Below are positions 3,268 through 56,372 of a stretch of 64,000 nucleotides of DNA, piece after piece (position 1 is the first letter of the stretch; the number at the start of each line of letters is the position of its first letter). Below the pieces are notes generated by a model, which did not search any database, was not told where the DNA came from, and saw only the letters and a program-made list of their open reading frames with translations. This DNA comes from Micromonospora coxensis (GTDB lineage Bacteria > Actinomycetota > Actinomycetes > Mycobacteriales > Micromonosporaceae): contig NZ_LT607753.1 in assembly GCF_900090295.1 (NCBI RefSeq), positions 4,960,001-5,024,000 on the forward strand. Reading direction: 5' to 3'. The position numbers and the translations under genes are program-made.

Positions 3268-5487
3268 ATGGGCAGAAGACCGGTGACGGTGCGGCTGGCG
3301 CGGTGGAGCGCCGAGCACCCGTGGCGTGCGATCGCGCTCTGGGTGGTGTTCGTGGCGGTGTGCTTCGTCGGGGGCAGCGCCGCCGGGCTGAAGGAGGCCA
3401 CCGACGCCGACATGGCGATCGGGGAGTCCGGCCGGGCGGACATCATCGTCACCGAGGGGAACTTCGACGACCCCGCGGTCGAGAACATCCTCATCACGCC
3501 CCGCGCCGGGACGCTGGACCAGGCGGCGGCGAAGGAGGCGGCGGCCGAGGCGACCGAGCGGATGCGCCAGGTGACCGGAGTGGCATCGGTGGGGGCGCCG
3601 GTGTCGTCCCGCGACGGCAACGCGCTGCTGGTGCCGGTGACCATGGCCGGCGACCCGGACGACGCCTCCGACCGGGTGCAGCCGCTGCGCGACGCGACGG
3701 CGGGCATCCAGGGCTCGTACCCGCAGCTGCGGGTCGAGCAGGTCGGTGGGCCGTCGATCGGCAAGGCCCTGGACGACACCCTCGGCAAGGACTTCAAGCG
3801 GGCCGAGCTGCTGAGCCTGCCGGTCACCCTGGCCATCCTGATCGTCGCCTTCGGCGCGCTGATCGCCGCCGGGGTGCCGGTGCTGCTGGCGCTCTCCTCG
3901 GTGGCCGCCGCGATGGGGCTCTCCACGCTCGCCTCGCACCTGGTGCCGGCGACCGACACCACGTCCAGCGTGATCCTGCTGATCGGCATGGCCGTCGGCG
4001 TCGACTACTCGCTGTTCTACGTCCGCCGGGAGCGGGAGGAACGCGCCAAGGGCCGGTCCGGGCTGGACGCCGTCGAGATCGCCGCGGAGACCTCCGGGCA
4101 CGCGGTGGTGGTCTCCGGCTTCGCGGTGATCATCTCGATGGCCGGGCTGCTGCTCGCCAACGACGCGGTCTTCTCCTCGCTGGCGGTCGGCTCGATCCTG
4201 GTGGTCGCGGTCGCGGTCACCGGCTCGCTGACCGTGCTGCCGGCGCTGTTGGCGAAGCTGGGCCGCTGGGTCGACCGGCCCCGGGTGCCGCTGCTCTGGC
4301 GGCTCACCGCGGCGCGTACCGGGCGGCACGGGCAGCCGGCGAAGCCGCGGTTCTGGCCGGCCGTGCTGCGCCCCGCGCTGCGCGCGCCGCTGGCCACCCT
4401 GGTCGTCTCGGTCGGGCTGCTGCTCGCCCTGGCCGCGCCGGCGCTGGGCATGAAGCTGAAGTTCCCCGGCATGGAGGACCTGCCCCGGACCACGCCGGCC
4501 ATGCAGGCGTACGACCGGCTGACCGCCGCCTTCCCGAGCACCGGCACCAGTCACCTGGTGGCCGTGCAGGCGCCCGCCGCGCAGGCCGACCGGGTACGGG
4601 CGGCGCTGACCGACCTGGCCGGGCGCGCCGCCGCCGACCCGCTCTTCGCGCCGGCCGAGGGGGACGGCCCGAAGATCGAGGTGTCGGCCGACCGGCGGGT
4701 GTCGACGCTGGAGGTCGCCACCCCGTACGCCAGCCGGGACGACGAGGCGGCACGTTCGCTGCACACGTTGCGCGACGACCTGCTGCCGGCGACGATGCGC
4801 GGCATCCCCGGGGTGGAGTACGCCGTCGGCGGCGGGGTCGCCGCGAGCGAGGACTACGCGCAGCACATCCAGGAGAAGCTGCCGCTGGTGATGGCCTTCG
4901 TGCTGGCGCTGACCTTCCTGGTGATGACCTGGACGTTCCGCTCGGTGGTGGTGGCGCTCACCTCGATCGTGCTCAACCTGCTCTCCGCCGGCGCCGCGTA
5001 CGGCCTGCTGGTGCTGGTCTTCCAGGGTGAGTGGGCCGAGGGGCTGCTCGGCTTCACCTCGATGGGGGCGATCGTCTCCTGGCTGCCGCTCTTCCTCTTC
5101 GTGGTGCTCTTCGGCCTCTCCATGGACTACCACGTCTTCGTGGTCAGCCGGATCCGGGAGGGGATCCGGGCCGGCATGTCCAACCGGGACGCGGTGGCGT
5201 ACGGGATCACCTCGTCGGCGGGCGTGGTGACCAGCGCCGCGGTGGTGATGGTCGGGGTCTTCGCCATCTTCGCCACGCTGAGCACGATCGACATGAAGCA
5301 GCTCGGCATCGGGCTGGCGGCGGCGATCCTGCTGGACGCGACGATCATCCGGGCGGTGGTGCTGCCGTCGCTGATGACGCTGCTCGGCGACGCCAACTGG
5401 TGGGCCCCGCGCTTCCTGCGGACCCGGGAGGCCGCCCCGCCGGCCGACCCGCCCACCCCCACCCCGGAGCTGGTCGGCGCCCGCTGA
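3268..5487 (+). CDS. MMPL/RND family membrane transporter
   Basis: 739-residue membrane protein of the MMPL (mycobacterial large protein) class, which exports lipids or hydrophobic compounds using the proton gradient. There is one N-terminal membrane helix (IALWVVFVAVCFVGG), then an external domain, then a helix bundle with GVDYSLFYVRREREE; the pattern repeats in the second half with LSMDYHVFVVSRIREG. ATG 3268 is preceded by AGGGGGAA and begins MGRRPVTVRLARWSAEHPWR, the usual family start; the open frame upstream to 3079 is non-coding. The substrate cannot be read from sequence. Confidence 0.9.
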   Translation: MGRRPVTVRLARWSAEHPWRAIALWVVFVAVCFVGGSAAGLKEATDADMAIGESGRADIIVTEGNFDDPAVENILITPRAGTLDQAAAKEAAAEATERMRQVTGVASVGAPVSSRDGNALLVPVTMAGDPDDASDRVQPLRDATAGIQGSYPQLRVEQVGGPSIGKALDDTLGKDFKRAELLSLPVTLAILIVAFGALIAAGVPVLLALSSVAAAMGLSTLASHLVPATDTTSSVILLIGMAVGVDYSLFYVRREREERAKGRSGLDAVEIAAETSGHAVVVSGFAVIISMAGLLLANDAVFSSLAVGSILVVAVAVTGSLTVLPALLAKLGRWVDRPRVPLLWRLTAARTGRHGQPAKPRFWPAVLRPALRAPLATLVVSVGLLLALAAPALGMKLKFPGMEDLPRTTPAMQAYDRLTAAFPSTGTSHLVAVQAPAAQADRVRAALTDLAGRAAADPLFAPAEGDGPKIEVSADRRVSTLEVATPYASRDDEAARSLHTLRDDLLPATMRGIPGVEYAVGGGVAASEDYAQHIQEKLPLVMAFVLALTFLVMTWTFRSVVVALTSIVLNLLSAGAAYGLLVLVFQGEWAEGLLGFTSMGAIVSWLPLFLFVVLFGLSMDYHVFVVSRIREGIRAGMSNRDAVAYGITSSAGVVTSAAVVMVGVFAIFATLSTIDMKQLGIGLAAAILLDATIIRAVVLPSLMTLLGDANWWAPRFLRTREAAPPADPPTPTPELVGAR

Positions 5488-5499
5488 CCCGGATGCCTG

Positions 5500-5538
5500 G
5501 GCCTCAGGGGCGGGACTATGTGTTCCAACCCTGAGGCC
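5500..5538. terminator. Inverted repeat between the MMPL gene and the caspase-kinase gene
   Basis: GGCCTCAGGG (5500-5509) and CCCTGAGGCC (5529-5538) form a perfect 10-bp stem with a 19-base loop, followed by AATTTCCG. It lies 13 bases after the MMPL stop and right at the switch to A/T-richer DNA. It could be the MMPL terminator or mark the edge of an insertion. Confidence 0.45.
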
Positions 5539-5679
5539 AATTTCCGATTTAGATCGTTCCGGGATGAGTGTCCCCGGTGCGTTGTACAAGATCTGACAGC
5601 GTTTGCATGCTGGCTCGGTTTTCATTGTCTTCCTGCGGTAGTAAGGTTCCACCCTGCGTATAGGGGACCGGGGGATGCC

Positions 5680-7926
5680 TTGCCTGACAAAGTTGCCATA
5701 CTGGCGGGAATAGATGGATATGTGGGGCGGTGGGACCCACTGGATTGCAGCGTCCATGATGTGGAGGAGCTTGCGGCGATCCTTGAGATGCCCGAGTATG
5801 GTTTCCAGGTGTGCACCCTGAAGAATGAGCAGGTCACAAAGGCGGCGATCGTCCGCCAACTGATCGAGGCCCGGAATTCTGGTGCCACGACTGCTCTCTT
5901 CTATTTCTCTGGGCATGGTGCCGCCACAGAAATCGGCACCTTCCTCGTCACCCATGACAATAGTGACTTTGACGAGGGTGTCGAGCTGCGTAAGTTGGCG
6001 GAGATGCTGGGGTCGGCAGATGCGCAAACCCTGATCGTGTTGGACTGTTGCCACTCTGGAGCGGCCGGCCAGTTCGGCGACCTGCCCTACCAGGCCCGTC
6101 TGTTGGCTGGTGCAGACGTGCAGGCGGCCTTTAGGCTCAGTGCCAACTCTGTGGCGGTAATCGCAGCATGCACCAGTGAGCAACTGGCCTGGGAGGAGCG
6201 CAACCTGGGTCACGGCATCTTCACATATCACCTCCTGCAGGCCCTGCTGGGTGAGGCCGTCGACCATGAGGGCAACCTGACCGCGAACAGCCTGTACGAC
6301 GTTGTGTCCAGGAACATGGCGGCGAATGGACAGATCAGCGACCGGCAAAAACCGATCTTCGCTGGGCATCTCGCCGGCCGCCTAGTTCTGGCGTCGAACC
6401 TGGATCCCGCGCTCCCGCCGCCTCCCCAAGAGGAGGAGCTGCGGCAGATTGAACTGGAAGCCGCTGCCCTGATCGAGGACTACAACGGCTACAAGTCCCG
6501 GTTCGACACGCGATCGTGGCGAACTGAAGGGCACGAGGCGTGCAGTCGCCGACTCGAGTTGATCGACAAGTGGTTCACCAAGCGCCGCACGGTGCCCGGG
6601 CTGCTCACTCGGCCGGACTTCAAGAAGTCGGCGGAGACGCTGCTGCGGTACCGGACCGAACTCGGCTACGTCGAGAAGGGGACGGTAATCGCCGAAGGTG
6701 AGTTGGAGGAGCGCATTGGCGAGGGGGGGTTCGGGGCCGTCTGGAAGGTGGTCAACCGGGAGACGGGTAAGCGCGTCGCGCTCAAGCTCTACCATCCGCA
6801 CGAGATGTATGACAGCGAGAAGACGCGGCGCTTTGAGAACGGCTACGACGCAATGAAAATGCTTCGTCACCCCCAAGTAGTGGCCGTGCAGCGCTACAGC
6901 CGGTGTCCCACCGGATTCGTCATGGATTTCATCGACGGCCCGAATCTCCGGTCTCTCGAACCGCATGCCTTCATGGAGCCTTATGCGCTGATCCGGCTAT
7001 TGATCGGCATAGGCGAAACTATTCAGCATGCGCATCAGAATGATGTGATCCATCGTGACATAAAGCCCGAGAATATTGTTTGTGAATACCAGGAGGACGG
7101 CTCTGTATTGCCGTATCTGACTGATTTTGACCTGGCCTGGTTCAACACGCATACGCAACGCGCGACCAAGACCGCTATGGGTGTCGTCTATTACGCGGCC
7201 CCGGAACAATTCTTTGCCTTTGACCCGAAGGCTGCGTTGACGAAGACACCCGCTTTGGACGTCTTCTCCTTCGGTCAGTTGATGTACTACTGCTTTACCG
7301 GCCGCGATCCGGATCCTGTTCGACTGGACGTCAACCGGCAGACGCTAGAAGAAACGGCTATGCGCAAAGGGCTCGACAACGAGAGCGTGCTTGCCTTGTG
7401 TAGCCTCTATCGAGAGGCGACCGAGTGGGATCAACCGGTCCGCCTGCAGAACTTCATTACCGTGCTCAGCCGCCTGCGTGCCATCGAGGCTTCGCTGCTG
7501 CACACCTCGCCAACGAAAATGTTCGATCAGGATGGCTTCGTGGCTGAGTTGATTGCGATGCTGACCGGGCGTTCCGTGGTGCCGGGTTCCACTTCCTCGT
7601 ACATCACTGCCGCCGGTACCTGGCAGGTGACGCTTGAGTGGCAGGAGAGGCACAGAAAGAGGCAGTACCGGCAGCATCTGAACGCTCACTTCCTGCCGCA
7701 GGGCAGAATTGGGCTGGAAGGAGTGCCAAACGAGCAGATGCGGAGAACGCTCAACAAGCGACTAGACGAGGCGTTGAAGCGGTACTCGTCGTTGGCGACG
7801 CGCCACCCCGGCCGGCACGGCACTTACGAGGTCTTCGTCGAAATCGTGCCTCGGCAGCTTGATGTGGAGGGAGTTCGGGCCGCTGCGGACATTATCAGCG
7901 AGTCGGTTGCTGCGCTCAGCATCTGA
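5680..7926 (+). CDS. Caspase-like peptidase fused to a Ser/Thr protein kinase
   Basis: 748 residues from TTG 5680, chosen because GGGGGA precedes it and the peptidase strand (PDKVAILAGIDGY) starts there; the frame is open upstream to 5518. Residues 1-235: caspase (C14) fold with the His79 dyad residue in FYFSGHG and Cys124 in LIVLDCCHSG. Residues 240-335: linker with charged helices. Residues 340-605: kinase domain with glycine loop GEGGFGAVW, Lys369 in VALKL, HRDIKPEN (Asp460), DFD in place of DFG (482-484), and APEQ. Residues 620-748: C-terminal region I do not recognise. No membrane segment, so cytoplasmic. A/T-ending codons are far commoner than in neighbours, suggesting transfer. Role is inferred: a signal-gated protease in cell fate or defence. 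No partner gene adjoins it. Confidence 0.88.
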   Translation: MPDKVAILAGIDGYVGRWDPLDCSVHDVEELAAILEMPEYGFQVCTLKNEQVTKAAIVRQLIEARNSGATTALFYFSGHGAATEIGTFLVTHDNSDFDEGVELRKLAEMLGSADAQTLIVLDCCHSGAAGQFGDLPYQARLLAGADVQAAFRLSANSVAVIAACTSEQLAWEERNLGHGIFTYHLLQALLGEAVDHEGNLTANSLYDVVSRNMAANGQISDRQKPIFAGHLAGRLVLASNLDPALPPPPQEEELRQIELEAAALIEDYNGYKSRFDTRSWRTEGHEACSRRLELIDKWFTKRRTVPGLLTRPDFKKSAETLLRYRTELGYVEKGTVIAEGELEERIGEGGFGAVWKVVNRETGKRVALKLYHPHEMYDSEKTRRFENGYDAMKMLRHPQVVAVQRYSRCPTGFVMDFIDGPNLRSLEPHAFMEPYALIRLLIGIGETIQHAHQNDVIHRDIKPENIVCEYQEDGSVLPYLTDFDLAWFNTHTQRATKTAMGVVYYAAPEQFFAFDPKAALTKTPALDVFSFGQLMYYCFTGRDPDPVRLDVNRQTLEETAMRKGLDNESVLALCSLYREATEWDQPVRLQNFITVLSRLRAIEASLLHTSPTKMFDQDGFVAELIAMLTGRSVVPGSTSSYITAAGTWQVTLEWQERHRKRQYRQHLNAHFLPQGRIGLEGVPNEQMRRTLNKRLDEALKRYSSLATRHPGRHGTYEVFVEIVPRQLDVEGVRAAADIISESVAALSI

Positions 7927-8105
7927 CTACTGCTGTATATGAAGGGTCATGCGGGGAGGCATGGAAGGGCGGCTGAAGCTGGGCAGGTGCGGACACACCA
8001 GTACGAAGCCGGCTCTCTCGCCCTGGTCACGACCACCATCGTCTGATCGGCGTACCTCTCTCCGCCTTGCACGTGCGGAGTTGCTGTGGGGGATGTAACG
8101 GAAGG

Positions 8106-8969
8106 TCAGGGGAGGGGGCAGGGGTCGCGCCAGGGGCCCAGGTCGCGTTGCTTGCGGATGGAGGCGAAGCCGTAGCCGACCGTGGTGACGCAGAACGTGG
8201 CGGTGCTCCCGGTGTACTCCACGTGGAAGACCGGCTTGCCCGCCTCGGCGAAGGGCAGCAGCTTGGCGCACCGGCGCAGCCGTACGCACTCCTCGTTCAC
8301 CGCGAAGTCGAAGTCGGGCGCCAGCGCGGCGACCTGGTCCAGGTCGTCGACCAGCCCGGGGGAGAGCTCCAGGGACCGGGCCAGCGCCGCGACGCGCCGG
8401 TTGAACCGGAGCTGGTCGTCGAAGTGCAGCCGGAACCCGGAGCGGTGGGCGTACCCGTCGGCGTCGGTCAGCGCGACCGCGCCGAACCCCTTGCCCCGGC
8501 AGAGCCGGAGCCGGTCGGCCAGCACCGGACGCAGCACGTCCCAGCGGCGCACGTCCAGCCAACGGCGGCGTGGCCGGTCGGTCGGGGCGCCGCGGACCGC
8601 CGCCGGGAAGCGGGTGGCGTCCGGGTCGTCCTCGGCGTACGACCCCACGTGCACCTGGCACACCAGCCGCCGGTCCCGTCGGCGCAGCTCGGCCGTCTCG
8701 GCGGAGGTGGTCCGGACCGGGTCGAGCAGGAAGACGTCGGCCTGCACCGTGGTGTCGACCGGGCCGGTGAGCTGCCACTGCCACTGCCACCGGTGGGCGT
8801 ACCCGGCCGGCCACTGCGTCGGCGCGCCCGGCGGTGTGGGCACGGCGCGGCAGGCGTACACCGGGGTGAGCAGGACCAGCGCCACGGCGGCCGACAGTGC
8901 CCGGCGGGCGGTGCGCCGCCACGACCGCCGGGCGGGTGTGCCGCGCCGCGCTGGCCGTCGGATCCGCAT
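8106..8969 (-). CDS. Exported GH114-type endo-alpha-1,4-polygalactosaminidase-like protein
   Basis: 287 residues with a basic N-terminus and a hydrophobic export segment (LSAAVALVLLTPVYAC), possibly a lipoprotein with a non-standard lipobox. The mature part matches the TM1410/GH114 barrel pattern: QADVFLLDP, VCQVHVGSYAED, WLDVRRWDVLRPVLADR, GFGAVALTDADGY, LVDDLDQ, DFAVNEECVR and KPVFHVEY. Known members cleave galactosamine-containing exopolysaccharide; many actinobacterial members are uncharacterised. It is transcribed towards the caspase-kinase gene and stands alone. Confidence 0.8.
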   Translation of the reverse strand: MRIRRPARRGTPARRSWRRTARRALSAAVALVLLTPVYACRAVPTPPGAPTQWPAGYAHRWQWQWQLTGPVDTTVQADVFLLDPVRTTSAETAELRRRDRRLVCQVHVGSYAEDDPDATRFPAAVRGAPTDRPRRRWLDVRRWDVLRPVLADRLRLCRGKGFGAVALTDADGYAHRSGFRLHFDDQLRFNRRVAALARSLELSPGLVDDLDQVAALAPDFDFAVNEECVRLRRCAKLLPFAEAGKPVFHVEYTGSTATFCVTTVGYGFASIRKQRDLGPWRDPCPLP

Positions 8970-9058
8970 GCGCCGCTCCCGGGTCCTCGGGCGGGCCGCG
9001 CCGCCCCGCGCCGGTACGCCGGGCCACCTCGCGCGGCGTGCCGCACCCGGTCAAACGA

Positions 9059-9104
9059 CGCGCCCCCGGCCGACGACGCGGTGGGCGTCGCGGACGGGGG
9101 CGCG
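9059..9104 (-). terminator. Terminator hairpin after the CAP-domain gene
   Basis: CGCGCCCCCG (9059-9068) pairs perfectly with CGGGGGCGCG (9095-9104), with further pairing inside the loop. It begins 13 bases beyond the stop codon of the minus-strand CAP gene. Confidence 0.6.
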
Positions 9105-9116
9105 TCGGTGGACGGC

Positions 9117-10283
9117 TCAGCGGGGCGCGGCGAAGACCTGGGTCCAGTACGGGCCGTTGCTGCTCGCCACACCGACACCGATCTCGGTGAAGGCGCAGTT
9201 GAGGATGTTCGCCCGGTGCCCGGGGCTGTTCATCCAGGCGTCCATGACCGCGGCCGGGGTCTTCTGGTTCCAGGCGACGTTCTCGCCGTAGGTGCGCCAG
9301 GCGTAGCCGACCCGGTCGAGCCGGTCGCCGGCGTCGCTGCCGTCGCTGCCGGTGTGCGACATGTTCTGGTGGTCGGCCTGGTCCTGGCTGTGCCGCTGGG
9401 CGGCGGTCATCAGCTTGTCGTCGATGCCCAGCTTCCCGCAGCCGGCCTTGGCCCGCTCGGCGTTGACCAGGTCGACGACCTGCTGCGCCTGGCTGCCGAC
9501 GCCGGGGCTCAGCGAGTTCGTGCCGCCGCCGGTCGAGGCGCTGCCGTTGCGCGCGGTGCCCTGCCGGGACGCCGCCGTGGTCCGCGTCGGCGCGGGCGTC
9601 GGCCGGACCGTCTTCGTCGGCGACGGCTTCGGGCCGGCGGTGGTCGGCGTGGCGCTGGGGGAGGGGCTGCCGGTGGCGGCCGGCGCGTCGGCGGGCGCGC
9701 CGGTGACGTCGGGGACCACCGGGGCGGCGGCCACCGAGTCGTCGAAGGACGCCCGCTCGGTCTCCTCGCCGGGCAGGACCAGCGCGCCCACGCCGAGGCT
9801 CACCACCAGCGTGGCCGCCGCGGCGGCGCCGCCGATCAGCAGCGGGCGGGGGAGGCGGCCGCGCTGCCGGTGCCGCCCCTGTCCCTCGGCCGACGGCTCG
9901 CCCGCCGGGCTCCCGGCGGGGGCGGTGTGCGGACTGCGGGCGGCGGCCCGCTCGAACGGGGCCACCACGGGGCCGGGGAGGTCCCGGGGATACCGGTCGG
10001 CGGTCCGCTCGAAGGGGGCCACGACCGGTCCGGTCGGCGCGTCGACCGGCGGGAGGGCGGCGGTGGGCTCGTCGTACGGCCGGTCGGCGTGCCAGACCCC
10101 GGTGGGGGCCTGCGCCCAGTCGTCACCGGGCTCGTCCGGGGCGTCCCCGAAGAGGTACGCCGAGCGTGGCTCCGGGCGGTCGGTCAGCCAGCTCGGCTGC
10201 TCGTCGGCGGGCGGCGCCGGTCGCCGGGGAGCGCCGTCCGCTTCGTTGGGGTCGGTCCAGCCGTACACGCCTGTCGCCTCCAC
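9117..10283 (-). CDS. Membrane-anchored CAP (SCP/PR-1) domain protein
   Basis: 388 residues. Residues 1-160 are Pro/Asp-rich and probably cytoplasmic. One membrane helix (LLIGGAAAAATLVVSLGVGALVL) follows, then a Thr/Pro/Ala-rich extracellular linker, then a CAP domain at about 265-388 with VVDLVNAERAKAGCG, AAQRHSQDQA, HTGSDGSDAGDRL, GENVAWN and MNSPGHRANILN. The His and Glu residues of the CAP cavity are present. Function of bacterial CAP proteins is mostly unknown. The start is GTG 10283, without a clear ribosome binding site, so it may differ. A terminator hairpin follows. Confidence 0.85.
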   Translation of the reverse strand: MEATGVYGWTDPNEADGAPRRPAPPADEQPSWLTDRPEPRSAYLFGDAPDEPGDDWAQAPTGVWHADRPYDEPTAALPPVDAPTGPVVAPFERTADRYPRDLPGPVVAPFERAAARSPHTAPAGSPAGEPSAEGQGRHRQRGRLPRPLLIGGAAAAATLVVSLGVGALVLPGEETERASFDDSVAAAPVVPDVTGAPADAPAATGSPSPSATPTTAGPKPSPTKTVRPTPAPTRTTAASRQGTARNGSASTGGGTNSLSPGVGSQAQQVVDLVNAERAKAGCGKLGIDDKLMTAAQRHSQDQADHQNMSHTGSDGSDAGDRLDRVGYAWRTYGENVAWNQKTPAAVMDAWMNSPGHRANILNCAFTEIGVGVASSNGPYWTQVFAAPR

Positions 10284-46766: not shown

Positions 46767-48014
46767 TCAGGCGCGGGGGTGGGCCTGGCGGTACGCCGCC
46801 CGCAGCCGTTCCACCGAGACATGGGTGTAGATCTGGGTGCTGCCCAGCGACGAGTGCCCCAGCAGCTCCTGTACGGCCCGCAGGTCCGCCCCGCCCTCCA
46901 GCAGATGCGTCGCCGCCGAGTGGCGCAGCCCGTGCGGGCTGACCCGGGGCAGCCCGAGGTCGTCGACGTAGCCCCGGACGATACGGCGCGCGGTGGTCGG
47001 GTTCAGCCGCCCGCCCTTCGCGCCGAGCAGCAGCGCGCCGCCGGAGTCCGATCCCGCCAGGGCGGGCCGGCCATGGCGCAGCCAGTCGTCGATCGCCCGC
47101 TGCGCCGGCACCCCGTACGGCACGGACCGCTCCCGGCCGCCCTTGCCGAGGACGCGCACCACCCGCCGGCCGTGGTCGACGTCGGCGACGTCCAACCCGC
47201 ACGCCTCGCCGACCCGTACCCCGGTGCCGTAGAGCAGTTCGAGCAGGACCCGGTCGCGCAGCCGTACCGCCTCGTCGGTGCCGTCCACAGGCGACGGACC
47301 GGGCTCGTCGCCCGGTGCCGGGCTGTTGGGCGGCACCGACGGCGGGACGGCTGTGGTGGACGACGTCGGTGTCCCCTCGGCCGCTGCGGCTCGGGTCTCG
47401 GCCGTGGTGGCTCGGGCGCCGGCCGTGGCGGCTCGGGCGCCCGCAGCTCGGCCTGGGGCGTCCGTCGCTGCGGCCTGGGCGCCCGCAGCTCGGCCTGGGG
47501 CCTCCGCCGCTGGAGCCTGGGCCTCCGCTGCCGGGGCCAGGGACTCGACCGCAGGGGCCGAGGCCCCCGCCGCGGGTCTCACCGCTCGGGTCGGAGCCTC
47601 GACCAGGGCGGCGGCCTGGTCGGCGCGGAGCACGGTGGGCAGCTCCCGGTGCGCCCGGGGACTGGCCAGCGCGGCGGCCACGTCCGTGGCGAACAGGCCG
47701 TTGCGGTGCGCCCAGGCGCTGAAGGTGCGGGCCGCCGCCGCTCGGCGGGCCAGCGACGTCCGGGCCGCCCCCATGGTGCGCTGCTTCGCCAGCCAGCTCC
47801 GGACGACCGACAGGTCGACCTCGGCCGGCCCGGCGCACCCCGACCGTACGGCGTGGTCGAGGAGCGAGACGACGTCGGCGACGTACGCCCGGACGGTGTG
47901 CGCGGAACGACTGCGTACCCGGGCCAGGTGGTCGGCGAAGTCGTCCACCGCCTCCCGCATCGCCGGTGGCAGTGCCGCGTGCCGGGCACGGGTGTCCCGT
48001 CCGCCGGCCGTCAT
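46767..48014 (-). CDS. xerC: Tyrosine recombinase XerC with an internal low-complexity insertion
   Basis: 415 residues against a usual ~300. The N-terminal core-binding domain (residues 15-140) is normal. Residues 145-245 are an Ala/Pro/Glu/Thr-rich stretch (e.g. APGRAAGAQAAATDAPGRAA) absent from ordinary XerC. The catalytic domain resumes at RLRDRVLLELLYGTGVRVGE, with Arg267, Lys291, His361, Arg364, His387 and the Tyr396 nucleophile all present. XerC resolves chromosome dimers at dif with XerD. The gene keeps frame across the insertion, so it is probably functional. ATG 48014 overlaps the stop of a small upstream ORF; GTG 48026 is an alternative start. Confidence 0.93.
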   Translation of the reverse strand: MTAGGRDTRARHAALPPAMREAVDDFADHLARVRSRSAHTVRAYVADVVSLLDHAVRSGCAGPAEVDLSVVRSWLAKQRTMGAARTSLARRAAAARTFSAWAHRNGLFATDVAAALASPRAHRELPTVLRADQAAALVEAPTRAVRPAAGASAPAVESLAPAAEAQAPAAEAPGRAAGAQAAATDAPGRAAGARAATAGARATTAETRAAAAEGTPTSSTTAVPPSVPPNSPAPGDEPGPSPVDGTDEAVRLRDRVLLELLYGTGVRVGEACGLDVADVDHGRRVVRVLGKGGRERSVPYGVPAQRAIDDWLRHGRPALAGSDSGGALLLGAKGGRLNPTTARRIVRGYVDDLGLPRVSPHGLRHSAATHLLEGGADLRAVQELLGHSSLGSTQIYTHVSVERLRAAYRQAHPRA

Positions 48015-48082
48015 CGCCCGCCCCACGGCCTCGGTGACCGGACGGTCGGGCCGCGCCCCGGCGTGTGACTCCCGCCTCGCAT
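48011..48082 (-). CDS. Putative leaderless 23-codon ORF coupled to xerC
   Basis: On the minus strand ATG 48082 is six bases after the -10-like TAGGCT (48094-48089) and opens a 23-residue frame (MRGGSHTPGRGPTVRSPRPW…) that ends in a TGA overlapping the xerC ATG as ATGA. The layout suggests that ribosomes loading on a leaderless mRNA translate this peptide and then reinitiate at xerC. The peptide itself resembles nothing I know. The evidence is positional only. Confidence 0.4.
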   Translation of the reverse strand: MRGGSHTPGRGPTVRSPRPWGGR

Positions 48083-48829: not shown

Positions 48830-49375
48830 TCATCCCGGCGCTCCGCCCGGCGGAGCGGCCGGGGCGGCGGCCGGCTTCGCGGGCGGTGTCAGGGCGTACC
48901 CGCCGTCCCGGCGGATCACCATCGCCAACTCCTCCAGCAGGCTGAGCTTGCGCATCGCCGTACGCAGGTCCACCCCGGCGCGGGCGGCGAGCGCGTCGAC
49001 GCCGAGCACTCCACGCCGGGGCAGTGACTCCAGCACCAGCGTGGCCTCGTCGTCGAGCAGGTCGGCCGGGCGGTCGGGGCCGCGTGCCGGTGGCGCCAGG
49101 TCGTAGCCGATCCGGCCCACCTCCTCCAACACGTGCGCCACCCCGGTCACCAACCGTGCCGACGAGTGCTCCCGCAGCAACTCGTGCGCGCCGACCGACA
49201 TCGCCGAGGTCACCGGTCCCGGCACGATCATGGCGGGGCGGCCCATCGCGAGCGCCCGGTTCAGCGTCTGCGTCGCGCCGCTGCGGGCTGCCGCCTCGAC
49301 CAGCACCGTGCCCCGGGTGGCAGCGGCGATGACCCGGTTGCGGATCAGGAACCTTTTCCGAACCACTAAGATCAT
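48830..49375 (-). pseudogene. dprA: DprA C-terminal fragment (3' part of split dprA)
   Basis: 181 codons. From 49352 downward the frame reads FLIRNRVIAAATRGTVLVEA, then ARSGATQTLNRALAMGRP and PGPVTSAMSVGAHELL, the second half of the DprA Rossmann domain, plus the C-terminal winged helix (DALAARAGVDLRTAMRKLSLLEEL). The first seven residues (MILVVRK) are supplied by the inserted element. DprA loads RecA on incoming single-stranded DNA. Without the nucleotide-facing N-terminal half this piece is unlikely to work alone. Confidence 0.92.
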
Positions 49376-49490
49376 CGATTGATGGGACCCGGGATGACGG
49401 AGAGTTATTGCTCGCGGTTCGGGTTCTAGGCTTTGTCAGTGCTGATGTTCCGCTCGCCGGGGGGGTGCCTGGGGACCAGACGCCTGACGC

Positions 49491-49496
49491 TAGAGT
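49491..49496 (+). promoter_or_regulatory. -10 box for the element methyltransferase gene
   Basis: TAGAGT ends six bases before GTG 49503, again predicting a leaderless mRNA; this promoter lies inside the element. Confidence 0.5.
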
Positions 49497-49502
49497 CTCG
49501 CC

Positions 49503-50117
49503 GTGGTGAACCAGTCGGTCCGTGACGCCTACTCATACATGTCTGAGCAATACATCGCCTTGTTCAAGGGTGACTCGCAGGCTGACGTGGACGACGCGGC
49601 CCTCGTCCGGGACCACCTGGTCGGCTTGGACGGTAGGGTGCTCGATCTCGGGTGCGGCCCCGGGCACTGGAGCGCCTACCTGCATTCGTTCGGCGCCGAC
49701 GTGACCGGCGTGGACCTGGTCCCTGAGTTCATCGACCATGCGCAGACGAACTTTCCGGGGCCGGAGTTCAGGCTCGGATCGATGACCGACCTGAACCTTC
49801 CCGACCACTCGGTGGCGGGCATCCTCTCCTGGTATTCGACCATCCACCTGCCGCCGCCAGAGCTGGACGGTGTACTTACCGAGTTCCGCCGGATGTTAGC
49901 TCCCTCCGGGAAGCTGGTGATCGGCTTCTTCGACAGTGCCGACGGCGTAGCCGCGTTCGACCACAAGGTTCACACGGCATACCGCTGGCCCGTAGATACG
50001 TTCTCCGCCCGCCTGGCAAAAGCCGGTTTCACCGAGGTTCAGCGCTTGAGGAAACAGATTCCGGACCGTCCGGACCGCATGTGTGCGGCCATCGCAGCGA
50101 CAGCCGCTGCGTCATAG
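49503..50117 (+). CDS. Class I SAM-dependent methyltransferase (element cargo)
   Basis: 204 residues. Motif I VLDLGCGPGHWSAYL, an acidic residue after the next strand (VTGVDLVPEFI), LPDHSVAGILSWYSTIHL, and SGKLVIGFFDS are the standard Rossmann methyltransferase elements. The acceptor is unknown; the fold is shared by small-molecule and RNA methyltransferases. It runs opposite to the recombinase genes and is the only passenger gene in the element. GTG 49506 is an alternative start. Confidence 0.85.
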   Translation: MVNQSVRDAYSYMSEQYIALFKGDSQADVDDAALVRDHLVGLDGRVLDLGCGPGHWSAYLHSFGADVTGVDLVPEFIDHAQTNFPGPEFRLGSMTDLNLPDHSVAGILSWYSTIHLPPPELDGVLTEFRRMLAPSGKLVIGFFDSADGVAAFDHKVHTAYRWPVDTFSARLAKAGFTEVQRLRKQIPDRPDRMCAAIAATAAAS

Positions 50118-50250
50118 TGATCACCTCACCGCTGGACCAGCCCTTCCGGCAACGTACTGGCCTTGATAGATCGATCAACTGACGGTTCAAGGGAAGCCAC
50201 CTCCGCAGTGAGGCGCCAAACGGTCCGGCGTCCGGCTGAGCAAGGGCGGC

Positions 50251-52641
50251 TCATCGGCCGCGGATTACTGGAAGGCCCAGGTCCACCGTCGTTGCGGGGG
50301 TCGCCCGGCGGTCGAGGTTAGCCAGCTTGCCGCGGGCTGCCTCCAGCGACACCTGCAGGCCTTGGACCTCGCCGAGCCATCCGTTGGCCTGTGCCTCGTC
50401 GAGGCGCTCCTGCAGGTTGGTGGCAATCTCTTCGAGGCGGGGTCGCTGCGCTGGGTCGACGCGCAGCATGGGGCAGCGGATGCAGGCGTGCTCGTGGTTG
50501 CAGGGGGTTCCGTAGGGCCGGCCGCAGGTGCCGAGTTCGAGCTTGCGCAGCAGGAAGTGTTCCTGGAACTCCTCCCACTCGGCGTCGGTGGGCTCGCGGT
50601 ACTCGGTCGTGGGGCGCATGGCCCGCCGCTCGGCGAGGAATGCGCGGTAGGCCTGGACGAGGTCGTCCTGGAAGACCGCGAGGTAGGCCTGCGTGGTGTT
50701 GAGGTTTTCGTGACCAAGTAGACGTGCGGCGATGTGGACGGGCAGGCCGCCGGAGACCGCCTCGGTGGCGAAGATGCGCCGGAAGTCGTGCGGTGTGTAG
50801 CGCAGCGGCTTGCCTGCGGCGTCGGTGAGGCCGGCCAGCTTGAGAATGTCAGCGAGATGGTTCTGGACCAACTTCTGGCTGATCACCTCGCGGCGCCAGC
50901 CGAGGATGTGCTGAAACAGGTGCGGCAGCATCGGGCCGGTCGTGCGCTCGTGCGGGTCGTAGCGGGCGACCAGCGGGATCTGGCCTGTCTCCGGGTCGCG
51001 AATCCGCTTGATGATCGTGGCAAGGACACTGGCGAGTTCCGGGCTGACCAGCAGTAGCCGCTCGCTGTTGGACTTCGAGGGGACGATCTGCAGCAGCGGG
51101 ACGATCTCGTTGGTGTCGCGCAGCTTGTAGGACGTCAACGCCAGATGGGTGATCTCCAGCAACTCTTCGAGTCGGACGCCGGTGTGCCGCAGCGTCTCAA
51201 CGATCGACCAGCCCCAGAACGCGGAGTTCTCGATGATCGTGAGGTTGAGCAGGTCGCCGGTCTCGAGGTGGACGGCCCAGATGTGTTCCGGGCCGCGCTG
51301 CCGGTGGCTGCGATGCGTGGCGGTCTTGGGTGCGCTGCGCTGATAGCTCACACCGTCGTGAATGAACGTCTCACCGAGCGCGGTGCCCTTCGCCGCCTCC
51401 AGAATCGCCTGGTGGTGGGCGCGGTTGCGTTCGGCTGCATGGATCAGCAGCGGCAACTGTGGAAGGCGCTCCCGGACGCGCTGGTGCATAGCCGCTGTGG
51501 CCTTTTTGCGCGCCTTGCCTTGCCCGTCGGTGTCAGCCTTGCGGACCGGGCTGGGTGCGGCGAACGGCGCCCAAGACGGGTCCTCCAGAGCCCACTCCTG
51601 GATGTCGAGGTAGAACGCCCGAACTCGAACCAGCAACCCCAGCCTGTCGCGGCGCTCTCGTCCCGGATAGCGAGGGTCGGTGACGAACTTGGTGCGCTCC
51701 TTCCAGGCTGGGGCGATGTCCGGTGGCAGGTTGATCGAGTCGGCATCAGGATGATGCTGTTCGATGTCATGCCAGAAGGCGCCGACCAGGTGCCCGACAA
51801 GCCCTCTGAAGGAGCCGTAGTCCATTGCCGGTCGCCGTTCTTCGCAGTAGCGGACCAGCAGATCACGGACCGGTTTGCATCGCAGCTCGAACGCGTCGAC
51901 CAGCTCGGCGGTCGGTCGCTGCCCGACACGGATAGCAGCGCGCAGCGTCTTGTCTTCCTTGATGATCCCGACGCCGCGCGCCAGCTCCCAGGCGGCGTGC
52001 AGGCCGGGCAGTTGACGGCCGATGGCGCGAACACTCCATGCTCGGGCCACGAAGAAGTCCTCGGGTTCGAGCTGTTCGAGGTCCTTGCCGGTGTGCAAGA
52101 CGATCTTGGTCAGCGCGACAAGCGGCTGGTTCTCCTGTCGTCCGATCATGCCGAGCCTCGTCGCTTCGGCGGCTGCCCGCGCGAACAGGTCCGGGCTGAC
52201 GGTCTGCCGCAGTTGGTCGAACAGGGCGTATGCCTTGTAGCGGTGTAGGAAGGCGTAGCTGGGCCGCAGGACTCTCAGCAGGAGCAGGCCTCGCATTCCG
52301 CACTGCAACTGCTCGTCGGAAGCCGCATCGGTGGCATCCCTGGCCTCGGCGACCTGCTCGCGCCAAGACCGGTCATGGACGTCCGCGGCGAGCCACCGCG
52401 CTTGCCAGCCGTCTCCCGGGAAGGTCTGCAGCCACTCCAGGATCAGGCGAGCACCTCGCAGCCAGGTGAGGCGCTCGTGGCCGCCGGCAGGCCATGACGG
52501 TAGCCGCGGCAGCGCGTCGAGGACCACGTTGATGTCGCGCCGGTCTAGCCGGCCCAGGGGGTGTTCTTGTGGGACCAGGTTGTCGGCAACGGTCAGCTGC
52601 CGCCAACGCGGTGGCCTCTTGGCCAGGGCGGTGAGCGTCAT
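50251..52641 (-). CDS. Large tyrosine recombinase (TnpB-like)
   Basis: 796 residues. A long N-terminal region of about 480 residues precedes the catalytic domain: TLRHTGVRLEELLEITHL (Arg), PHDFRRIFATEAV (His-x-x-Arg), ARLLGHENLNTTQAYL (His and Tyr nucleophile). A C-terminal Cys/His cluster, CGRPYGTPCNHEHACIRCPML, probably binds zinc and is typical of the larger recombinase in these elements. ATG 52641 overlaps the stop of the partner gene by four bases, so the two are translationally coupled. Confidence 0.9.
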   Translation of the reverse strand: MTLTALAKRPPRWRQLTVADNLVPQEHPLGRLDRRDINVVLDALPRLPSWPAGGHERLTWLRGARLILEWLQTFPGDGWQARWLAADVHDRSWREQVAEARDATDAASDEQLQCGMRGLLLLRVLRPSYAFLHRYKAYALFDQLRQTVSPDLFARAAAEATRLGMIGRQENQPLVALTKIVLHTGKDLEQLEPEDFFVARAWSVRAIGRQLPGLHAAWELARGVGIIKEDKTLRAAIRVGQRPTAELVDAFELRCKPVRDLLVRYCEERRPAMDYGSFRGLVGHLVGAFWHDIEQHHPDADSINLPPDIAPAWKERTKFVTDPRYPGRERRDRLGLLVRVRAFYLDIQEWALEDPSWAPFAAPSPVRKADTDGQGKARKKATAAMHQRVRERLPQLPLLIHAAERNRAHHQAILEAAKGTALGETFIHDGVSYQRSAPKTATHRSHRQRGPEHIWAVHLETGDLLNLTIIENSAFWGWSIVETLRHTGVRLEELLEITHLALTSYKLRDTNEIVPLLQIVPSKSNSERLLLVSPELASVLATIIKRIRDPETGQIPLVARYDPHERTTGPMLPHLFQHILGWRREVISQKLVQNHLADILKLAGLTDAAGKPLRYTPHDFRRIFATEAVSGGLPVHIAARLLGHENLNTTQAYLAVFQDDLVQAYRAFLAERRAMRPTTEYREPTDAEWEEFQEHFLLRKLELGTCGRPYGTPCNHEHACIRCPMLRVDPAQRPRLEEIATNLQERLDEAQANGWLGEVQGLQVSLEAARGKLANLDRRATPATTVDLGLPVIRGR

Positions 52642-53888
52642 TGCAGGCCCCCTGCTCCGAACAGAACCGACATGTCGCCGGGGTCGTAGCCGGGCCCGAT
52701 GGCAGGCTGCGGCGGCCCGGCGGCCCGGCGTTCCTGCTCGGCGTGGTGTTGCCTTACGCGCTTGATCACCTCGTCCTGGTCGTCTTCCAGATAGATCTGG
52801 GTGGTGGTCAGGTGGGCATGACCCAGCAGGGTCTGAACGTCGCGCAGCGATAGGTTCTCGTCGCGGGCCATGCGCAGGGCACACGTGTGTCGCAGGTCGT
52901 GCATCGACCAGTTTGCGCCCAGCAGCTTGTTAGCGCGAAGCAGAACGGCTCTCAGTGCGTCGTACTCCAGGGGGACACGTTGCAGTCGGCCCTCGACTCG
53001 TTGGCGCCGCAATGTCCACCACAGCGGCTGCTCAGGGCGCAGCCGGCGTAGTTCCACCAGGTAGAGGCGCAACCAGACGAAGGCCTCAGGACTGGCCGGC
53101 AACCACTGTTCCGCGCCGGAGCCCTTACGTGCCACCCGAATGAGCTGGTCACCCCAGTCGACGTCGCAGACTCGCACACCGAGAAGCTCGTTAGCGCGGG
53201 CCGCGGTGCTGACCGCCAGGGTGAGGATGGCACGGTCGCGGTGCGAGTCCATCGCCTTGAACAGGTCGAGCCAGGCGTCGTCGGGCATGGCCCGGGGCTT
53301 GCGCTTGGGGACCTTGGGGTTGTAGCGCAGCCGCCCCTCCGGCCGGAACGGTTCGAGGGGGTTATGGTGTGCGTTCGGCCTGCTCCCGCGCCGGTCACGA
53401 GGGACCGGATTGCGCAGCGGACCTTGCCCTTCCTCGATCCAATATTCATAGAAGGCGCGCAGCACCGCGTTGGAGTGTCGGACAGTTCGGGGCTTGTACT
53501 GGTCGCTCTGGTACTCCTTGCGAGTGATCGGGTTGACCGTACCGGCCGTGGATGCTGAGGCCTTGCGGCGCTTCGCGACGGGCTTCTCAGTGTGCTGCAG
53601 CCACAGCACGAGGTCCTTGGTCTCGGTCGACGTAGCCCGCTCCCACGGCACGTCAACGGCCCGCAGGAACCGCCACCACCGCAGCAACGTATAGGCGTAG
53701 CTGCGCACCGAGCCGGGACGGTTGCCGCGGGCAACGAAGTCACGCAGGAACCGGTGGATCGGCTCGACGGGCTCGCCGGCGTCGTCATACACGGTGAACG
53801 GCACCGGCGCGACGGCTGGCCCGACCCGCCCCCACTCGGGCAACTTGATGGCCGCGATGTCCCGTTCCGGGCGTTCCGGTAGATCCAC
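52638..53888 (-). CDS. Tyrosine recombinase (TnpA-like)
   Basis: 416 residues, first gene of the recombinase pair. N-terminal SAM-like DNA-binding domain (FLRDFVARGNRPGSVRSYAY), then TAARANELLGVRVCDVD (Arg), NWSMHDLRHTCALRMA (His-x-x-Arg) and LLGHAHLTTTQIYLE (His and Tyr). It begins about 127 bases inside the right end of the element, as expected for a recombinase acting on its own end. The start codon is GTG. Confidence 0.9.
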   Translation of the reverse strand: MDLPERPERDIAAIKLPEWGRVGPAVAPVPFTVYDDAGEPVEPIHRFLRDFVARGNRPGSVRSYAYTLLRWWRFLRAVDVPWERATSTETKDLVLWLQHTEKPVAKRRKASASTAGTVNPITRKEYQSDQYKPRTVRHSNAVLRAFYEYWIEEGQGPLRNPVPRDRRGSRPNAHHNPLEPFRPEGRLRYNPKVPKRKPRAMPDDAWLDLFKAMDSHRDRAILTLAVSTAARANELLGVRVCDVDWGDQLIRVARKGSGAEQWLPASPEAFVWLRLYLVELRRLRPEQPLWWTLRRQRVEGRLQRVPLEYDALRAVLLRANKLLGANWSMHDLRHTCALRMARDENLSLRDVQTLLGHAHLTTTQIYLEDDQDEVIKRVRQHHAEQERRAAGPPQPAIGPGYDPGDMSVLFGAGGLQ

Positions 53889-53987
53889 GCGGGTTGCCTC
53901 CCCAGGCCAAAGATGGGTATCTCTGGGTAAGCAACTTCGGGATCATGTCAATGGATACGCTGCGTATACCGAAAGAGTGGGGCAGAA

Positions 53988-54707
53988 CTACAGCAGGGTA
54001 GTCCGGTCAACACATCGTGGCCGCAGCGGATCGGCCCCGGGCATCCACTCGCTCACCAGCAGACCGGTGTCGGCGATCCGGTCGAACAGCGCCGCGTTGC
54101 CCATCGGATAGGGGCGGTCGACCCCGCAGGCGAGCACGGCGACCGTCACCCCACCGGCGGTCAACGCGCCCCGGTGCGCCGCCGCGTCGATGCCGAACGC
54201 GCCGCCGGAGACCACCGCCCAGTCCCGCTCGGCCAGCCCGTACCCGATCTCGGTGGCGACGTGCACGCCGTACCCGGTGGCGGCTCGCGCGCCGACCACC
54301 GCGACGGAGCGGTCCAGCGTCTCGCCGAGCGGCCAGCCGCCGCGTACCCAGAAGCAGAGCGGCGGGGCGGTCTCCAGGTCGACCCGCCGGCTGGCCCCGG
54401 GAAGGACCAGTCGACTCAGGTCGTCGAGCCGGGCCGGCCACTCGTCGTCCTCCGGGGTCAGCAGCCGGGCGCCCACCCGCTCGGTACGGGCGAGCGCCTC
54501 CACGGCGGCCGACCGCGCGTCGCCCGCCCCGCTGCGGGCGGCCACCACGTCGCGCAGCCGCCGCTCCGGAGCACCGCCGTCGAGCAGCAGGTCCAGCGTG
54601 GCCACCGGGCCGAGCTGCTGCACCAGCCGGTACACCGACCAGGTGCCCGGCTCGGTGAGCCAGGTCAGCGCCACTCGGGCCAGCCGGCGCTCGTCTCGGG
54701 TGCTCAT
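53988..54707 (-). pseudogene. dprA: DprA N-terminal fragment (5' part of split dprA)
   Basis: 239 codons; about 230 are genuine DprA: MSTRDERRLARVALTWLTEP, RSVAVVGARAATGYG, VVSGGAFGIDAAAHRGAL and LACGVDRPYPMGNAALFD, then SEWMPGADPLRPR. The frame then enters element DNA (CVDRTTLL) and stops. The ATG overlaps the comM stop by four bases. Missing are the rest of the Rossmann fold and the winged helix, so natural transformation functions that need DprA are probably lost unless the element excises. Confidence 0.92.
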
Positions 54708-56224
54708 GTCCCTTCCCCCGTCCTGAGTTGGATGGCCTCCAGCACGTCCTCGCGCCCCGGCCGGTCCCGGCCGTCCAGGTCGGCGATCGTCCAGGCCAGG
54801 CGGATGATCCGGTCGAAGCCGCGGGCGGAGATCGCGCCGGAGTCGAGCCGGCCGCGCAGTTCTGCGGTGTCGCGCACCGGCAGCCGCCAGGGCGGCCGGC
54901 GCAGGTGCGGGCCGGGGATCTCGGCGTTGAGCTTGCGGCCGACCGGGGCCCACCGGGCGGCCGCCGCCCGCCGGGCGAGCGAGACCCGGGCCGCGACGCC
55001 GGCCGACGACTCGCCCGCCCGGGCCGCCTCCATCAGCTCCGCCGCCCGCACCGGCAGCAGCTTCACCTGTACGTCGATCCGGTCCAGCAGCGGCCCGGAG
55101 AGCCGCCCGAGGTAGCGCCGCCGGGCCAGCGGGCTGCACTCGCAGTACGCGTCACCGGCGGGCTTGGCGCACGGGCACGGGTTGGCCGCCAGCACCAGCT
55201 GGGTCCGGGCCGGGTACTCCGTCCCGCCCCCGCTGCGGGCGAGTTGGATGCGGCCGTGCTCCAGGGGCTGGCGCAGCGCCTCGAGCGCGCCCTTGCTGAA
55301 CTCGGGGGCCTCGTCGAGGAAGAGCACGCCCCGGTGGGCCAGCGACACCGCGCCCGGTCGGGCCAGCCCCGACCCGCCACCGACCAGCGACGGCACCGTC
55401 GCGGTGTGGTGCGGTGCCTGGAACGGCGGGCGGCGCAGCAGGCGCCCGCCCGGCGGGAGCAGCCCGGCGATCGAGTGCAGCGCGGTGACCTCCAGCGCCG
55501 CGTCGTCGTCCAGCTCGGGCAGGATCGACGGCAGTCGCTCGGCCAGCATGGTCTTGCCCGCGCCGGGCGGCCCCAGCAGCGCCAGGTGGTGCCCGCCGGC
55601 GGCGGCCACCTCCAGCGCCCGCCGGCCCAGCCCCTGCCCGGCCACGTCGGCCAGGTCCGGCCCGTCCGGGTCGGGTGCCGGCGGGTCGGCGGGCGGGTCC
55701 AGCAGCGGGCTGCCGTCTCTGACGTACGCGACCAGGCGGTGCAGTGTGTCCACCGCGCGTACCCGGATGCCCGGGATGACCGCCGCCTCGGCGGCGTTGC
55801 CCACCGGGACGACGATCCGGTCCCGCCCGGCCCGTGCCGCCGCCGCGACCATCGGCAGCACCCCGCGCACCGGCCGGACGGCCCCGTCCAGGCCCAGCTC
55901 GCCGAGGATCACCACGCCGTCGAGCGGGGCGAGGGGAAGCTCTCCGGAGCCGCCGAGCACGGCGGTCGCGATGGCCAGGTCGAACGCGGAGCCGTACTTG
56001 GGCATGGTCGCGGGCAGCAGGTTGAGGGTGATCCGCCGGTTGGGCCAGCGCTGCCCGGAGTTGACGATCGCCGCCCGTACCCGGTCCCGCGCCTCGTGCA
56101 GGGCGGTGTCGGGCAGCCCGGAGATGACCACCGCCGGCAGGCCGGGCGCCAGGTCGGCCTCCACCTCGACGAGGTGGCCGGTGACGCCGACCAGCCCGAC
56201 GCAGAGCACCTTCGCGTAGCTCAC
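54704..56224 (-). CDS. comM: Mg-chelatase-like AAA ATPase (YifB/ComM)
   Basis: 506 residues. N-terminal Lon-protease-like fold (VEVEADLAPGLPAVVISGLPD), Walker A LLGPPGAGKTMLAERLPSIL, Walker B GVLFLDEAPEF, and a C-terminal lid with a Cys cluster (NPCPCAKPAGDAYCECS). ComM drives branch migration during natural transformation. GTG 56224 gives VSYAKVLCVGL, the normal family start; the open frame upstream is repeat DNA. With dprA it forms a competence-type pair. Confidence 0.93.
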   Translation of the reverse strand: MSYAKVLCVGLVGVTGHLVEVEADLAPGLPAVVISGLPDTALHEARDRVRAAIVNSGQRWPNRRITLNLLPATMPKYGSAFDLAIATAVLGGSGELPLAPLDGVVILGELGLDGAVRPVRGVLPMVAAAARAGRDRIVVPVGNAAEAAVIPGIRVRAVDTLHRLVAYVRDGSPLLDPPADPPAPDPDGPDLADVAGQGLGRRALEVAAAGGHHLALLGPPGAGKTMLAERLPSILPELDDDAALEVTALHSIAGLLPPGGRLLRRPPFQAPHHTATVPSLVGGGSGLARPGAVSLAHRGVLFLDEAPEFSKGALEALRQPLEHGRIQLARSGGGTEYPARTQLVLAANPCPCAKPAGDAYCECSPLARRRYLGRLSGPLLDRIDVQVKLLPVRAAELMEAARAGESSAGVAARVSLARRAAAARWAPVGRKLNAEIPGPHLRRPPWRLPVRDTAELRGRLDSGAISARGFDRIIRLAWTIADLDGRDRPGREDVLEAIQLRTGEGT

Positions 56225-56225
56225 C

Positions 56226-56372
56226 GGGCCACCCCGGACCCGCTCCGGCCCTCGCCCAGCCCCACCGCCCCGGACCCGGTCCAGCCCGTGGACCACCCCG
56301 CCATCCCGGACCGGGCCCGGCCCGTTACGCGCGCCGCCACCCCGGACCAGGTTCGGCCCGTGAACCGCCCCG
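56226..56372. repeat. Degenerate ~36-bp tandem repeat, four units
   Basis: Units resembling CCACCCCGGACC, then a variable part, GCCCGTG and ACCGCCCCG recur at about 36-base spacing between comM and yraN. One minus-strand frame shows a 12-residue period (VAGRFTGRTWSG, VAARVTGRARSG, MAGWSTGWTGSG), but no start or stop logic ties it to either gene. Confidence 0.7.

Follow-up and report, generated by a model that had tools for sequence, protein, structure and literature searches.

The dprA gene of Micromonospora coxensis is split in two by a few kilobases of DNA carrying two tyrosine recombinase genes. In other bacteria dprA is linked to DNA uptake; we know of no natural competence in the Micromonosporaceae. 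The questions are what this intervening DNA is, how it came to lie in dprA, and whether it acts on transformation. The window, by which we mean the whole stretch of DNA analyzed, comprises 64,000 nucleotides (positions 4,960,001 to 5,024,000 of contig NZ_LT607753.1). Its features around dprA are given below in window positions; genomes and loci used for comparison carry G and L numbers.

46767..48026, minus strand: host recombinase gene, presumably XerC-like, downstream of dprA and outside the element
48830-49375, minus strand: DprA C-terminal open reading frame (PF02481 profile positions 142-207); dprA proper is 48830-49352
49348..49353, minus strand: attR core GGTTCC, the six bases of dprA used as target
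49353-54015, minus strand: whole element, 4,663 bp, whose removal rejoins dprA in frame
49354..49366, minus strand: TnpB-side end motif GTGGTTCGGAAAA, an imperfect inverted repeat of the TnpA-side end
49503..50117, plus strand: class I SAM-dependent methyltransferase, cargo, 204 aa
50251..52641, minus strand: long tyrosine recombinase, TnpB, 796 aa
52638..53888, minus strand: short tyrosine recombinase, TnpA, 416 aa
53988-54707, minus strand: DprA N-terminal open reading frame (PF02481 profile positions 3-148); dprA proper is 54016-54707
53998..54010, minus strand: TnpA-side end motif TTGACCGGACTAC
54011..54016, minus strand: attL core GATGTG, its first G common to core and dprA
54704..56296, minus strand: host gene that we take to be comM-like, intact, directly upstream of dprA and outside the element

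A first-pass annotation of the sequence had placed the two DprA parts at these positions, on either side of two tyrosine recombinases and a methyltransferase, and the PF02481 profile matches bear this out. Its element ends, 49353 and 54015, with rejoining in frame, are correct to the base: we placed the boundaries by comparison with intact dprA and with relatives of the element, and excision in silico of 49353-54015 yields a 405-aa DprA frame without internal stop, reading PLRP-RFLIRNRV at the junction. Comparison with dprA of other genomes agrees, as the predicted empty-site 25-mer, GGCCACGGTTCCTGATCCGCAACCG, is present verbatim inside the intact dprA of G029, G060, and G132 of the same genus. 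One correction is needed, namely that the last eight codons of the N-terminal frame and the first eight of the C-terminal frame come wholly or nearly wholly from the element ends. The former frame has a tail of eight element-coded codons followed by a stop, and the latter opens with ATG and seven further codons from the element end, the last codon being shared. We infer that the insertion breaks DprA. In three insertions, those of the window, L014, and G051, the R-end provides an in-frame ATG for the dprA C-terminal part (window 49375, L014 near position 6133, L084 near position 1492); in G026 it does not. This ATG could be a matter of chance, or could allow expression of the C-terminal part.

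The host genome is a single contig of 6.77 Mb. It contains one TnpA match at E <= 1e-30, so the element is present as a single copy. Duplication of an attachment site was ruled out, since no long direct repeat was found at the two ends of the element. The dprA element thus combines absence of target duplication, a six-base core, and imperfect inverted-repeat ends. In close relatives the TTGACCGGACTAC end is found again upstream of TnpA, either identical or slightly altered; it is unclear in the more distant relatives L006, L007, L009, and L011; the other end in relatives is typically (T)CCGGAWAAG, again an imperfect inverted repeat of the TnpA-side end.

Both recombinases, which we labeled by gene order, lie adjacent and in the same direction on the dprA strand, the TnpB start overlapping the TnpA stop by 4 nt (ATGA), and the methyltransferase is on the opposite strand. 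In TnpA, R231, H330, R333, H357, and Y366 are invariant among 28 aligned sequences; in TnpB, R490, H618, R621, H644, and Y653 are invariant among 40, as are the cysteines C706, C714, C720, and C723. These three genes are the entire gene content between the ends, and neither an Xis or other directionality factor nor a TnpC was recognized among them. For each NCBIfam family matched by the methyltransferase, its score lies under the curated cut-off.

From these features the element is very probably one of the Tn554-related, site-specific transposons of actinobacteria, without recognizable TnpC. As described in the available text of Van Houdt et al. 2012 (PMC3414803), such transposons pair one long recombinase (611-828 aa) with one short one, and some lack TnpC. 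The window element shares with them the host group and a long and a short tyrosine recombinase gene that lie side by side and are transcribed together, and resembles their subgroup Famint41/36 in having no TnpC. Its TnpB is 40.5% identical over 96% (E 3e-156) to NC_008270 pRHL2, a plasmid listed in that study, whose table names the long protein TnpA, whereas here the long protein is TnpB. The ends, core, and dprA target found here are not described in that available text. Tn554 itself, from Staphylococcus and Enterococcus, is presented in the accessible part of PMC10214605 as site-specific, with imperfect inverted-repeat ends and a six-base core; the window element is similar in these respects and in its two tyrosine recombinases, and differs in the lack of a recognized TnpC and in an attL core that apparently remains with the element. 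Matches of TnpB to staphylococcal plasmids reach only about 24-25% identity over about one third of its length. The strand-biased circularizing integrative elements (SEs) treated in the same part of PMC10214605 have the gene set intA, tfp, intB, and srap, of which Tfp and Srap are absent here.

Mobile elements are reported to interrupt comM, comYC, comFA, and radC (PMC4774983, PMC11472951, both as available in part). Like those of PMC4774983, the present element breaks a gene site-specifically at an orthologous place across species; unlike them it has dprA as target and a two-recombinase transposon system. The accessible text of PMC4774983 holds two mentions of dprA, apparently in reference titles, and among the best literature matches naming dprA we found no mobile element in dprA of Actinobacteria. 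The element is therefore of a known kind, and dprA as its target was not found described.

That the insertion is site-specific and lies in a conserved codon block, as the first-pass annotation had supposed, is upheld by other species in which the same six bases are hit. Actinoplanes liguriensis (L014) has an element in dprA in the same orientation as in the window, with TnpA 86% and TnpB 68% identical; it is 3.8 kb long, has the two recombinases alone between its ends and only about 46 bp from the end of TnpB to the R-end, and its flanks rejoin as LRH-RFLIRNRV. In G202, apparently A. oblitus, a 7.0 kb element (TnpA 81%, TnpB 74% identical to those of the window) occupies an accessory dprA in the opposite orientation, its flanks rejoining as EPVRHRFLLRNRV, and another, intact dprA is kept beside comM. 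Read on the dprA strand, the cores of the window, A. liguriensis, and G202 elements are GGTTCC, GTTTCC, and GGTTTC at identical codon positions, so both orientations use the same six dprA bases. All three clade elements with both ends resolved thus share one site, which we judge to be beyond chance. The core is the six bases at the Arg-Phe-Leu codons of dprA, and members of the clade use it in both orientations. A strong palindrome in the target, as a basis for both orientations, was considered and found weak: only 7 of 12 positions pair, and 5.9% of centers in dprA pair as well as the target does, with a range of 1.2% to 53% among 16 other dprA loci.

Two further insertions of this type are decayed, with the dprA N-terminal part lost and comM, or most of it, lost as well. 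In G051 only the dprA C-terminal part is left, preceded by an R-end at the same codon, whereas in G026 that part lies behind an R-end one base shorter, and the TnpB remnant is 83% identical to TnpB of the window. Insertions of this type in dprA were thus found in 3 of 160 genomes of the genus (G000, G026, and G051), only some of which were inspected at base level. A pattern search for the junction of R-end and dprA, covering one orientation, matched in 32 of 354 genomes of the family. Three of these (G000, G196, and G051) are junctions by their letters; the other 29 have two to three mismatches and, on the sequence alone and without individual checks, resemble intact dprA. The shorter G026 junction was missed by this pattern.

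In a TnpA tree of 22 rows the three dprA-inserted elements form a clade (support 100/99); G026 was not placed in it because it has no TnpA. The row sister to this clade (L054, G191) differs from it in the left flank. L069 and L077 form another pair of TnpA rows (100/100). Left flanks of L070, L077, and L059 match PF01135, that is, isoaspartate-methyltransferase-like genes (the best NCBIfam match being methyltransferase FxLD for the two tested), and L069, to judge by resemblance alone, is in such a gene too. The right flank of L053 matches NUDIX PF00293 above the cut-off, and L071 lies in an MFS-like permease gene (PF07690, 33.0 bits, just under the 33.4 cut-off). G441 holds two copies that share 1,981 bp at 99.9%; TnpB is shortened in each of them, and each rejoins in frame locally. 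A mechanical R-end search covered 15 loci, seven of which were rerun, and gave no convincing R-end for L054, L057, and L059; a scan for relatives in named genomes gave two loci only. L077 apparently contains, at about 4995-9819, another and more distant element nested inside the conserved Cys-rich motif of the first element's TnpB; the only R-end for the nested element has two mismatches (9819), and the search did not resolve the first element. Since relatives outside the clade lie in other genes, the dprA target is clade-specific and not family-wide; judged by flanking genes, specificity for dprA is a property of one TnpA clade. The first-pass annotation had made its account depend on relatives sharing the target, and this holds for all three clade members, which are in dprA, and fails outside the clade, where the genes hit are unrelated.

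The cores were read by eye in 11 elements with both junctions, or 10 after removal of L070, a same-lineage duplicate. Among these 10, the attL cores resemble one another more than the attR cores do (mean 3.2 versus 1.9 of 6 identical; swap test, p = 0.002). This likeness, together with the in-frame rejoining, suggests that target bases stay at attR and the element's core travels at attL. The two G441 copies have a common attL core, GAACTG, and differing attR cores. Within the dprA clade the attL cores differ (GATGTG, GAACTA, GACCTG) and could be donor-derived, as reported for Tn554 and SEs. In the mechanism we propose, the element would take a circular or copied-out form, whose two end motifs TnpA and TnpB would jointly bind before strand exchange with the core of the target gene; the six target bases would remain on the TnpB side, at attR, and the element's own core would travel on the TnpA side, at attL. 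Most likely the dprA element is a selfish insertion of the ordinary sort rather than a programmed on/off switch. Seen as one copy in one assembly, it showed no movement; the clade members with both ends resolved number three.

The wider fate of dprA and comM in the genus is varied. At E <= 0.001, PF02481 has no match in 7 of 160 genomes, one of which (G145) may only have a contig break, and the matches in the other 153 genomes comprise accessory copies and remnants as well; dprA is thus dispensable over time. Nine dprA-poor genomes of the genus were searched with a comM fragment without about 110 N-terminal residues; eight gave no match at E <= 1e-10, and the remaining one, G145, has its match at a contig end. 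N-terminal comM remnants persist in G051 and G126. The comM-dprA interval is deleted or a remnant in G051, G026, G126, G111, G137, and G141 (loci L102, L103, L104, L135, L139, and L140). Large serine recombinases adjoin a comM broken near residue 107 in G051, G012, G069, G050, G099, and G136 (L141-L145 and L167), both comM parts being present only in G012 and G050, and a comM broken near residue 501 in G158, G005, and G049 (L157, L159, and L169). Recombinase remnants lie beside comM or dprA in G094, G111, and G137 and, by eye, also in G126 (L150, L151, L153, and L104). In L082 (G095) dprA is broken solely by a frameshift near the RFLIRNRV stretch, possibly a draft-assembly error.

One may ask whether the clade took dprA as target because blocking transformation protects an element from recombinational removal. 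Such a selected strategy is established as an idea for comM and comYC elsewhere (PMC4774983, PMC11472951, PMC12637031, all as available in part), and it would fit the fact that one clade has inserted at least three times at a single dprA site, the two decayed insertions, and the serine-recombinase elements in neighboring comM of the same genus. However, relatives with the same ends use many unrelated genes, and dprA may therefore be no more than one conserved site among them; the G202 insertion is in an accessory copy while its other dprA is intact; and natural competence of this genus is not in evidence. We regard this explanation as possible but doubtful.

Much less probable is a reversible switch on transformation competence, as the first-pass annotation proposed, in which precise excision in some cells or conditions would restore dprA and so control transformation. 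Both dprA halves are intact and rejoin in frame, the catalytic residues are kept in both recombinases, and comEC is present in the host genome. However, in-frame restoration is expected of any clean insertion and is therefore no evidence for regulation, and circle formation by SEs, which are mechanistic relatives, leaves no empty site according to the accessible part of PMC10214605. The lack of a recognized Xis or TnpC and the decay of the two older-looking insertions, in G026 and G051, also speak against a switch. The insertion is common to A. liguriensis and the window, yet these are two genera with diverged elements, and the methyltransferase has no match in L014, so there is no conserved regulatory cargo. 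In sum, nothing was found to support this part of the annotation, and an ordinary selfish insertion remains the preferred reading.

The annotation had itself named a second intact dprA, with these halves as old decay products, as the finding that would undo its account; PF02481 gives only two half-matches in the whole host genome, both flanking the element, so that dprA is single. It is hardly credible that the halves stem from old decay or from an assembly artifact: dprA is indeed lost or reduced to remnants in several genomes of the genus, but here the halves are full length, stop-free, and have dN/dS like intact genes, the genome is one contig, and the same junction occurs in independent genomes. 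Compared with 13 intact relatives, the split gene gave dN of 0.076-0.172 and dS of 0.37-0.73, values much like those of L041, the intact homolog closest to it. Of 12 comparisons common to the two genes, 9 gave a higher dN for the split gene, with a difference of 0.018 or less, and the split dprA may therefore be mildly relaxed. Unique changes at otherwise invariant sites number two in the split gene and 0-7 in the others; together with dN/dS, these counts do not support old decay. As the halves show little or no decay, the comparison points to a recent insertion in this genome.

With this element, dprA joins those conserved genes to which a site-specific mobile element is dedicated, and ends, core, and target can now be given for a class of actinobacterial transposons that has been described mainly through its recombinases. 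Natural insertion in both orientations provides material for studying how paired tyrosine recombinases choose a site. Taken with the comM insertions, it also makes testable the question of whether mobile elements fight transformation in the Micromonosporaceae. We hold only tentatively that the dprA clade and the serine recombinases in comM may reflect selection on elements to disable transformation in this family. If that were true, DNA uptake would be, or would recently have been, real in the Micromonosporaceae.
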